From positions 810,501-874,500 of the forward strand of contig NC_019954.2 in the NCBI RefSeq assembly GCF_000328765.2: 64,000 bases of DNA, given 5' to 3'. Below are positions 4,603 through 10,080 of this stretch, one piece after another (within the stretch, counting starts at the first letter, position 1; each line of letters starts with the position of its first letter). The DNA is from Tepidanaerobacter acetatoxydans Re1. GTDB lineage: Bacteria; Bacillota; Thermosediminibacteria; Thermosediminibacterales; Tepidanaerobacteraceae. Made by a program: the position numbers and the translations under genes. Below the pieces are notes generated by a model. It made no database searches and was not told the origin of the DNA. It saw nothing but the letters and a program-made list of their open reading frames with translations.

Positions 4603-7600
4603 ATGTCAAAAAAACTTATTACTAGCTTCGTTTTATTGGTTTTTATCTTGACTAATTTAGGTATAGCTGCCTTTGCGATGCCGTCGGATGGCATACAAGA
4701 ATGGAATGACAATCCTACGCTATTTCAGGTAAAACGAGAACCAGCTCATGCGACATTTATACCTTTTGCTGATGTTGAAACGGCTCTAATGCGAGACAGA
4801 GACAACTCTCCCTACTTTAAACTACTTAACGGACAGTGGAAATTCCACTGGTCTAAAAATCCGGCTTCAAGACCTGTGGATTTTTATAAAGAGGATTTTG
4901 ATGTAAGCCAATGGGATGAGATACCGGTTCCCAGCTGCTGGCAGCTACAAGGATATGACTACCCTATATATACTAATGTTACATATCCTTGGACAGGTTA
5001 TGAAAATCCTAAACCACCGAAAGCCCCTACGGTATATAACCCCGTTGGTTCTTATCGACACACATTTACTATACCTGAAGACTGGGATGGACGCGAGGTT
5101 TTTATCTCCTTCCAAGGTGTAGAATCAGCTTTTTACCTCTGGGTAAATGGACAAGAAGTAGGCTATAGCGAAGATAGCTTTACACCTGCAGAATTTAATA
5201 TCACGGAGTATTTAGAACAGGGTGAAAATACCATTGCTGTTGAGGTTTACCGCTGGTCTGACGGAAGTTGGCTGGAAGATCAAGATTTTATTCGATTAAG
5301 CGGTATATTCCGTGATGTATATCTTTACTCAGTACCAAAGGTGCATATACGCGATTTTAAAGTCGAGACAGATCTAGATGATCAATATAAAGATGCAACT
5401 TTAAACCTCAGAGTAGATTTAAGGAACCTTGGTATTGAAAATCCTGATAATTATAAAGTTGAAGCAATGTTGTATGATGCAGATGAATCTCCGGTTTTAT
5501 TAGAACCTTTTTATACAACGGCAAGCTTCGGTGAAGAAGAAAATGAAGTTTCAGTAGAATTAGAGCAGTTTATAGAGAATCCGCTAAAATGGTCGGCTGA
5601 AGACCCGAATCTTTATACACTGGTGTTGAGTTTAAAAGATTCAACAGATAATATCCTCGAAACTACCAGTTGTAGAGTGGGTTTTAGGGAATTTGAAATA
5701 GAAGATAAGCAGATGAAAATCAATGGTAAGCCTATTATGTTCAAAGGTACAAACCGACACGAAATAGATCCGGACACCGGAAGGGTCATCTCAAAAGAAA
5801 GAATGATTCAAGATATTCTATTAATGAAGCAATTTAATATAAATGCTGTGCGCACATCACACTATCCTAATGATCCAATGTGGTATGACCTTTGCGATGA
5901 ATATGGTCTTTACCTAATTGACGAAGCAAATGTTGAATCTCATGGAGCTAATGGTACATTACCTAAAAGTGACCCTAACTGGTTAGATGCGTGCCTTGAT
6001 AGAATGAAGAGTATGGTAGAACGAGATAAGAACCATCCATCGGTGCTAATATGGTCTTTAGGTAATGAGGCCGGTAGCGGAACCACATTCAAGCATATGG
6101 CGGAATGGGCACGGCAAGCAGATCCTACACGTATCATCCATTATGAAGGGGATAACCAATGGGCTGATGTTCAAAGCAATATGTATGCTAGAGTAGGTAC
6201 TGTTGAAAATTACGGTAAAACCGGCACTAAGCCATATATATTATGTGAATATGCCCATGCTATGGGTAACAGTGTAGGCAACTTATTCAAATACTGGGAT
6301 GTTATAGAAAAATACCCGAATCTTCAAGGCGGCTTTATATGGGATTGGGTAGATCAAGCCCTTAGATGGCCTACGCCTGTTAAGAGAATAATTTCTGATA
6401 AAAGTAACAATAAATTTAAATCCGAGATGTTTGGTGAATTAGAAGTAGGTAGATCTGGTAATGCTTTGAGGGGATACACAATTTTACCTGATGTACCTGA
6501 ATTAAACATTACAGGTCAAGGCCTTACCCTTGAAGCTTGGGTAAAACCAGAAGCTTCTGCAAGCAGTGACAATGTAATTATTGCAAAGGGTGACAGTCAA
6601 TTTGCAATTAAGCATACTGCAAATTACTTGCAACAAAATAGAAGTGTAATTGAATTTTATATTTATGATGCAGATATTCCGGGGCAATGGACTCAATGGG
6701 TAGCGGCTGCTGCAGATACACCGTCAGACTGGTTTGGAGAGTGGCATCATGTGGCAGGAACCTATGATGGAACAAAATTAACGATATATATCGATGGTGA
6801 ATTAAAAGCTGAAAAAGAAACCACCGCAAAAATCACGGCTAACGCATACCCTGTGGGAATAGGCCGGGATGTTGAGAGGAATCGAGGTTTTAATGGTTTA
6901 ATTGATGATGCCCGAATCTATAACCGTGCACTTACTATTGATGAAATAAATAACCATGAAAGACAACCCGATGAAAGTACAGTGCTGTGGGTGGATTTTG
7001 AAGATGTAGAGGAAGATGGTTATCGTGATAGTGAATTCTTTGCCTATGGCGGAGATTGGGGAGACAATCCAAATGATGGAAACTTCTGTGCAAATGGCTT
7101 AATATTCCCTGACAGGACAGTGCAGCCGGAACTTTATGAAGTAAAAAAAGTGTATCAAAATATAGGAATTAAAGCTGTTGATTTAGAAAACGGTCAGATA
7201 GAAATACAAAATAAATATTTGTTTACAAATCTTGAAGAATTTAATATGTCATGGGAGTTATTAGAAGATGATGAAATAATCGACTCAGGCAATATAGTAA
7301 TTGACCTTGCCCCCCTTTCTTCTAAAGTTATTACGGTGCCTTTTGAGACTCCACAGATAAAACCCGGTGCAGAATATTGGCTAAATATAAACTTTACATT
7401 AAAAGAAGATACTCCTTGGGCTGATGCAGGTCATGAAATTGCCAAAGAACAGTTTAGTATGCCTTTTAGCAAAGAACCATTATCCTTAAGCATATCGGAT
7501 ATGCCTGAGCTTGAACTTGAGGAAAATGATGAGGAAATATTAATAAACGGAGATAAATTTACCATAGTGTTTGATAAATCTAAAGGAACTATGTCATCTT

Positions 7601-10080
7601 ATGTGTATGATGACAAAGAAGTCATTAAAGAAGGTCCAATACCCAACTTCTGGAGAGCACCTATTGATAATGATAAAGGAAACGGCATGCCGTCAAGAAC
7701 TGCTACATGGCGCTATGCCGGAGAAAATAGGCAAATAAGCAATGTAACGGTAACAAGGCTTGCAGATCAAGTTATACAGATAGACGTAGATGCAACATTG
7801 CCTACAAAAGTAGAGTCAGAATACAAAGCAACATATGTTTTTTACGGCAGTGGCGATGTGGTGGTTAACAATACATTAATATCGGATTCAAGCCTCCCTG
7901 AAATACCTGAAATAGGAACAATACTAACATTGCCGGAAGAATTTGAAAATATTAAGTGGTATGGACGAGGACCTCAAGAAAATTATTGGGATAGAAATAC
8001 AGGTGCACTTGTGGGAGTATATAATAGTACTGTGGATGAAGAATTTATACCGTATCTTGAACCTTCAGAAACCGGAAATAAGACCGATGTTAGATGGGTA
8101 ACATTGACAAATGATGAAGGTTTTGGGCTGTTGGCTATAGGAATGCCGCTTATTGAAGTTAACGCACTGCATTACACACCTGAAGACTTATCTACTGCAA
8201 GCCATCCCTATAAACTGGTACGTCGCGATGATATTACTTTGCGGTTAAATTATAAGCAGATGGGATTAGGTGGTGACGATAGCTGGGGTGCAAAACCTCA
8301 TTCTGAGTTTACACTTTATCCTGGCAAACCATATTCTTACAGCTATCGATTAAAACCAATTACTTTGTCAACACAATCACCTATGGAATTGAACAAGGAA
8401 GTAATAAGCCTAGATGCATTAAAAGGTATTAACATTGATGGAAAGCCGTTACCATCTTTTAATAGCCAAATACCGGATTATGAAATACAAATTTTAGAAG
8501 GAAGCAGAACCATACCACCTGTAGTTGAGCCTATACCCACGAGTGATAAAGTCCAATTAGAAGTAACCCAAGCAGAAACACTGCCCGGAACCGCGACTAT
8601 AACAGCAACATCAGAATTAGGAGTTACAACTATTTATTCAATCAAATTTATTACTGTTCCAGAAATATATCTTTCCGATATTGACTGGATAAATGCTACT
8701 TGTGGCTGGCAAACCATCCAAAGAGATAAAAGCGTTGAAGGTAATCCATTAAGATTGTTAGGGCCATCGAATCAGGTAATAACATTCGAAAAAGGTATAG
8801 GAACACATGCCGACTCAGAAATCATATATGACATTGAAGGAAAGGGTTATGGTATTTTTGAGTCATATATCGGGGTAGACCGTGAAATAAGCAATGGCAG
8901 TATTATATTTGAAGTTTGGTTAGATGGTGAGAAAGTATTTGAAAGTGATGTAATGACTGCAAGAACCCCAGCACAATTTATAAGTATAGATGTAAGAGGT
9001 AAAAATGAGCTAAAATTAGTGGCCCATGACGCGGGAGATGGAAATGCGGAGGATCATGCTGACTGGGCAGATGCCAAATTTAAAAAATCAGATGAAGAAC
9101 CAATTGCTGAACCAAAAATCACCCTAACAAGCCCTAACTCAGTCCAGTCAGGCATTGAATTTACAACAAAAATAGGCTTAAGCAATGTAACAGAAGCAGT
9201 CTATGCAGCAGACATAACAATAAATTACGACACTAACCTATTTGAACTTATAACATGTCAAACAGCAGATGACAATACTGTAATAAGTAAAGTCTATGAG
9301 GACGAACTAGGAAGCGTTAAGGTATCCATCGACTTTAAAGAACCGGTAACAGCTGAAGCAATAGAACTATTTGACATAGTTTTTAAAGCCAAAGAAATTA
9401 CCGAAACTAAATCAGGTATTATAGGAATATCAAAAGCTCTTATAAAAACAACAGAAGTTGAAGAACTACAAGTACAGCCCATAGAAAAAACAATCGAGGT
9501 AATAGCAGAAGATATCCCAGAAAAAGTAATATCATCAATCAAACCTGTAGAAATTACAACTAAAGTTGGAGAACCTCCTATACTTCCTGACAAAGTTATA
9601 GTGATATACAGCGATAATTCAACAGCTGAAGTAAATGTAATTTGGAATGAAATAAATCCTGAACAGTATGCTAATATAGGCAAGTTTACAGTAAAAGGAA
9701 CTGTTGAAGGGACAGACATCAAAGCTGTGGCAAATATAACAGTAGAAGCAATATCAGAAGAAAAGTCATTCACCATTATATCTGGAACTAAACTTGACAG
9801 AACCACAGGTATCAAAGCCAAGGTAAAAGTAAAACACAAGACAGAATCAAATACACATCCAGGTAATGAAGTAGTTCTATTCCAACTGATGAAAGGCACA
9901 ACACCGATAAGCATCATTGCATTAGAGAAAGATATAGTAACTGAAGAAGTATTCACAGCTCACTTTAATGTAAAAGACTATGAAAGCCTAGCTTACAAAG
10001 TAAAAGTATTCGTATTTGATCGCTTTGACAGTGATATAACTGCTCCGTTAAATCTTGCAGAACCGACTGAACTCGACTAG
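4603..10080 (+). CDS. Secreted multimodular GH2 beta-galactosidase (LamG, NPCBM, cohesin, Ig-like)
   Basis: A 1825-residue extracellular enzyme cleaving terminal beta-galactosides. A signal peptide covers residues 1-26. Residues about 40-595 are LacZ-type GH2 sugar-binding, Ig-like and TIM-barrel parts, with acid/base Glu489 in SLGNEAG and nucleophile Glu549 in [12 protein letters not shown] LamG/concanavalin-like domain (about 596-792) sits inside the barrel, between [10 protein letters not shown] and the LacZ segment [14 protein letters not shown]. The beta-galactosidase small domain spans about 980-1255. An NPCBM galactose-binding module follows (1355-1498), then a cohesin-like domain (1504-1636), an Ig-like Big_4 domain (1642-1716) and a C-terminal beta-rich tail. 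No dockerin, SLH or sortase signal is visible. The start has an AGGAGG site. Base composition shifts to A/C-rich from about 9100, suggesting later module acquisition. Catalytic assignment is firm; the natural substrate is unknown. Confidence 0.93.

Follow-up and report, generated by a model that had tools for sequence, protein, structure and literature searches.

The gene at positions 4603-10080 (+) of a 64,000-nucleotide stretch of Tepidanaerobacter acetatoxydans Re1 DNA, referred to here as the window, encodes a LacZ-type GH2 protein whose catalytic barrel is split between strand beta8 and helix alpha8, on the catalytic face, by a lectin-like LamG domain of the concanavalin-A-like type, as seen in alignments and in an AlphaFold model. 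This LamG-in-LacZ design is an old one that occurs widely among bacteria and salt-loving archaea; it has already been noted briefly in the literature and is mostly ordinary, and its moderate interest lies in the evolutionary pattern. It is a clear example of domain nesting inside a catalytic barrel, in the beta-galactosidase family that has been studied most thoroughly and from Bacillota to haloarchaea, and since the parent LacZ enzyme has been measured in great detail, the effect of a nested LamG can be asked against it. The insertion site shared across phyla, the apparent losses, and the tandem and relocated copies make these proteins a useful system for studying the effects of nested binding domains.

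Gene and Domain Organization

The reading frame, with an AGGAGG ribosome site close 5′ of its start codon, is organized as follows (residue numbers refer to the product).

4603..10080, +, whole gene for a LacZ-type GH2 beta-galactosidase with inserted LamG, predicted to be exported; ATG start, 1825 aa (Pfam, NCBIfam)
4603..4680, +, predicted N-terminal signal peptide, a hydrophobic run preceded by K/R (sequence)
4819..5337, +, GH2_N sugar-binding jelly-roll domain, residues 73-245 (Pfam)
5341..5688, +, GH2 immunoglobulin-like domain 2, residues 247-362 (Pfam)
5695..6366, +, TIM barrel part 1, residues 365-588, with E489, E549 and W580 (Pfam, motifs, AlphaFold)
6367..7029, +, beta8-alpha8 loop insert, residues 589-809, with LamG_3 at 631-783 (Pfam, alignment, AlphaFold)
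7030..7152, +, TIM barrel part 2, residues 810-850, with YGGDWGD, F828, N831 and helix alpha8 at 843-850 (alignment, motifs, AlphaFold)
7198..7461, +, LacZ domain 4 (LacZ_4), residues 866-953 (Pfam)
7549..8352, +, Bgal_small_N, which is LacZ domain 5, residues 983-1250, with W1228 (Pfam, motifs)
8662..9081, +, NPCBM/NEW2 carbohydrate-binding-type module, residues 1354-1493 (Pfam)
9115..9501, +, cohesin domain, residues 1505-1633 (Pfam)
9538..9714, +, Big_4 Ig-like domain, residues 1646-1704 (Pfam)
9748..10077, +, C-terminal segment without a Pfam match, about residues 1716-1825

The product passes the NCBIfam model for LacZ-type beta-galactosidase (NF052611, 1356 bits against a cut-off of 999), and the five-domain LacZ fold is present according to Pfam, the AlphaFold model and structural superposition. 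Pfam matched the GH2_C barrel in two stretches, the best being 365-588, and placed Laminin_G_3 (PF13385) at 631-783 with an E value of 5e-30 and 105 bits against a gathering score of 27.6. The NPCBM and cohesin matches likewise exceed their Pfam cut-offs (162 versus 23.9 bits and 38 versus 24.1 bits, respectively), while a single-sequence model of the C-terminal modules (1249-1825) reached a pLDDT of 37, too low to be of use. A preliminary description made from the sequence alone had given the gene coordinates and a LamG range of residues 596-792 correctly. It had also listed four further modules after LamG: the NPCBM is there, and the domain it called cohesin-like is a Pfam Cohesin match, but the count was too low, as LacZ domains 4 and 5, Big_4, a linker at about residues 1255-1350 with no domain assigned by Pfam, and the C-terminal segment (about 1715-1825) follow as well.

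Motif comparison revealed that the acid/base E489 and the nucleophile E549 are conserved and that domains 1, 3 and 5 retain all of their LacZ pocket residues, including W580, F828, N831 and W1228, the last being the equivalent of W999 in E. coli LacZ. With this complete pocket, the protein is expected to be a secreted, exo-acting beta-galactosidase; we infer the activity from these residues and the export from the signal peptide.

Site of the LamG Insertion

Alignment to the LacZ of Thermotoga maritima stops at residue 588 and picks up again at 810, the gap being the insert, and the same split is seen against solved LacZ crystal structures. The landmark motifs GNEAG (487), CEYAHAMGN (548) and WDWVDQ (580) are followed by YGGDWGD only at 815, 235 residues on, and by FCANG at 828; in LacZ without an insert, the GG-to-YGG interval is a short hairpin of usually 24 residues. 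An AlphaFold model of residues 49-1248, computed from an alignment of 41 sequences (pLDDT 91.3, pTM 0.88), gives the order beta7 (545-552), alpha7, beta8 (574-580), LamG strands (about 606-798) and alpha8 (843-850), and its non-LamG remainder superposes on E. coli LacZ with a Z of 50.9 and an rmsd of 2.0 over 954 residues. This order, together with the alignment break, places LamG within the barrel sequence on the strand-to-helix, that is, the catalytic side. The view that LamG interrupts the TIM barrel, for which domain search and structure prediction had been named as checks, is thus borne out by Pfam, the split alignments and the model, all of which have LamG inside the barrel in place of an ordinary LacZ loop. 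In E. coli LacZ numbering, the loop starts near W568 and ends near the Na+ ligands F601 and N604, corresponding here to W580, F828 and N831. About 10 residues separate W580 from the insert, which puts the LamG anchor at most about 35 angstroms from W580, an upper bound set by chain length.

The E. coli and T. maritima enzymes (1px3, 6sd0) share the five-domain core, the catalytic residues and the fold with the present protein, but have a short-hairpin beta8-alpha8 loop, no LamG and none of its C-terminal modules. A closer likeness is found in the GH2 survey of Talens-Perales et al. (2016; PMC5145203), whose passages on this architecture describe some GH2 proteins, presumably secreted, that carry an inserted Laminin G3 domain with GH2C before it and DUF4981 after it, and note that NPCBM may come after Bgal_small_N. 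The 4603-10080 product has this form, being LacZ-type and presumably secreted, with LamG flanked by the main part of the barrel and domain 4 and with NPCBM downstream of Bgal_small_N. Whereas those passages put the module between GH2C and DUF4981 and give no exact insertion site, phylogeny or structure, it lies here inside the barrel, at beta8/alpha8. Our literature search returned no further description of the insert and no assigned function, and a search for a solved structure spanning it found none.

Distribution and Evolutionary History

A full-length relative with 56% identity occurs in a genome of the same family, and protein searches found the insertion in Streptomyces and on haloarchaeal and Alteromonas plasmids. 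Scanning of named genomes yielded at least 80 loci with LamG-inserted LacZ from Bacillaceae, Paenibacillus, Clostridia, Streptomyces, Planctomycetota, Nitrospirota and Gammaproteobacteria, yet a phylum-wide sample gave a match at E 1e-20 in only 5 of 398 genomes, so that the distribution is wide but patchy. In profile mapping, LamG sits at core positions 544/545 in these sequences, within alignment slack. A LamG search of phages returned partial, weak matches only.

Distances between LamG domains correlate with those between the LacZ cores (r = 0.89 over 38 proteins; the best of 2000 permutations reached 0.19), which indicates that LamG mostly travelled with its own LacZ. Sequence comparison thus shows that the two have mostly been inherited together over a long time, with apparent losses and, in some lineages, with LamG copies elsewhere in the protein. 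On a quick, unrooted core tree of 71 proteins, which by itself cannot separate gain from loss, the insertion label changes 8 times, at least 4 of these being forced by well-supported branches. A single clade of all inserted LacZ was rejected (p-AU 0.0004), also after removal of the likely losses and three long rows, and several losses and/or gains and transfers of LamG are therefore needed. Two Bacillus-group paralogues without the insert (L136, L138) cluster with inserted proteins at moderate support (82), keep a longer loop and share the GGDWGD tryptophan that most of the inserted proteins have; this tryptophan is present in 21 of the 29 inserted proteins with a readable motif, while F or Y stands in its place in the other uninserted proteins whose motif is readable. 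On this quick tree, both paralogues look like LamG losses. Insertion and export show a raw association (p 0.001) under a rough signal criterion that is blind to Tat signals, and the independent pairs number only 4.

Tandem LamG domains occupy the usual loop in L018, L021, L165 and L166, and C-terminal copies occur in L046, L055 and L134. In haloarchaea, Halocatena salina L028 (L028:1966-7167) is a GH2 protein with LamG in both domain 2 and the barrel loop, and in L030 and L143-L146 the usual loop is free of LamG, LamG-like modules being found instead within Bgal_small_N and between beta7 and beta8. In a LamG tree, the deep support of which is weak, the two L028 modules cluster with each other, as do most of the L030, L143 and L146 modules, which suggests copying of LamG within the gene in these proteins. 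The nucleophile motif of L028 is altered, reading GEYAPVEGN instead of CEYAHAMGN. In three other haloarchaeal loci (L026, L027, L147), LacZ is split over two adjacent genes, the first with the LamG-bearing barrel and the second with Bgal_small_N and, after it, another jelly-roll-like match. In one further locus, L167 (G424:C10:29000-38200), two complete LamG-inserted LacZ units stand one after the other in a single 3269-aa frame.

Possible Role of the LamG Module

Directly upstream of the gene lie three genes of an MglB-MglA-MglC type galactose/methyl-galactoside ABC transporter, assigned with NCBIfam.

572-1639, +, MglB type
1710-3230, +, MglA type
3264-4277, +, MglC type

MglC exceeds its curated cut-off, while the MglB and MglA assignments are best matches that fall short of theirs. 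No terminator-like site was found in the 325 bp between mglC and position 4603, a gap whose length makes co-transcription of the four genes uncertain. The reading we favor, at a probability of roughly 0.55, is that the exported enzyme would cut terminal beta-galactose outside the cell and that the freed galactose would be taken up by the neighbouring MglBAC transporter. Both LamG and the NPCBM in the C-terminal part would serve as tethered modules for glycan or surface binding, which hold the enzyme at its substrate and leave the reaction itself unchanged; we infer both this binding role and the transporter link. A precedent is given by the GH10 xylanases Xyn10C and Pm25 (PMC7848910), in which one to three binding modules are likewise tolerated in a strand-to-helix loop of a TIM barrel, though the family, the loop (beta3-alpha3) and the module type (CBM4) differ. 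These CBMs assist the binding of complex substrates and biomass, and without them the xylan-degrading profile is almost unchanged (PMC7848910). The inserts conserve three LamG positions, E684, W710 and W796, that generic LamG domains lack; this hints at a specific role, the comparison set being a small one of six sequences. The occurrence of some exported LacZ relatives without LamG counts against the tether reading, as does the use of LamG domains for protein contacts as well.

The module could instead be structural, setting the quaternary structure or stability of the exported LacZ by replacing or blocking the subunit contacts of a tetramer or octamer. LamG takes the place of a loop on the catalytic face, and packing could be the role of the family-specific W710 and W796, the latter of which lies close to where the chain re-enters the barrel; this explanation is nonetheless rather unlikely, given that LamG-less relatives persist within inserted lineages and that tandem copies are tolerated. 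The preliminary description had proposed that LamG shapes the active-site entry and shifts specificity toward long galactans or mucin-type glycans, and the loop does depart from the catalytic face with ends that bear the W568 and F601/N604 equivalents. This proposal finds no support and is improbable, as the exo-acting LacZ pocket is conserved, and tandem, lost and relocated LamG domains speak against a precise steric role. The tandem copies in some relatives and the apparent losses in close ones are more in keeping with a modular add-on than with a precise gate, and a tethered glycan-binding module is the likelier role.

That LamG is a near-neutral passenger which landed in a tolerant loop would agree with its several apparent losses and with its identity being lower than that of the core across the same protein pairs, but appears more doubtful still in view of the long co-inheritance with the LacZ core and the conserved insert-specific residues. 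Least probable by our estimate is a regulation of catalysis by ligand-bound LamG via the beta8-alpha8 loop, with the enzyme working best when docked on a glycan-rich surface, an idea that draws on the W568 and F601/N604 equivalents at the loop ends.

Cohesin Domain and Neighbouring Genes

The cohesin of the 4603-10080 product is the sole one in the genome, and a search of this 99.8% complete genome for dockerin (PF00404) gave no match at E 0.001, so that a cellulosome-like cohesin-dockerin assembly finds no support here and was set aside. Two Paenibacillus proteins (L034, L035) match it in the order of GH2 core, LamG insert, NPCBM and cohesin, but end in a FIVAR-like stretch and a dockerin where the present protein has Big_4 and the C-terminal segment. 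With cohesin and dockerin on the same polypeptide as a LamG-inserted LacZ, self-assembly of the Paenibacillus enzymes is conceivable. Movement of LamG within the T. acetatoxydans genome was also rejected, as the genome contains one LamG only and the C-terminal segment (about 1716-1825) occurs in it just once.

The next gene downstream was identified by domain search.

10231-11481, +, secreted protein with Big_2 and three SLH domains

This protein is probably anchored at the cell surface, as a neighbour of the cohesin-bearing enzyme. Between the two genes, at 10172-10204, lies a perfect 14-bp inverted repeat with a 5-base loop (AGGTGATTGTATCTGTTGTAGATACAATCACCT), present as one copy in the window. 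Further downstream, a short ORF (12099-12401, +) appears to resemble the start of an IS110-type transposase and is perhaps a remnant, and 12831-16118 (+) encodes a protein of 1095 aa that has a GHL10 glycosyl-hydrolase-like domain and matches fn3 weakly.
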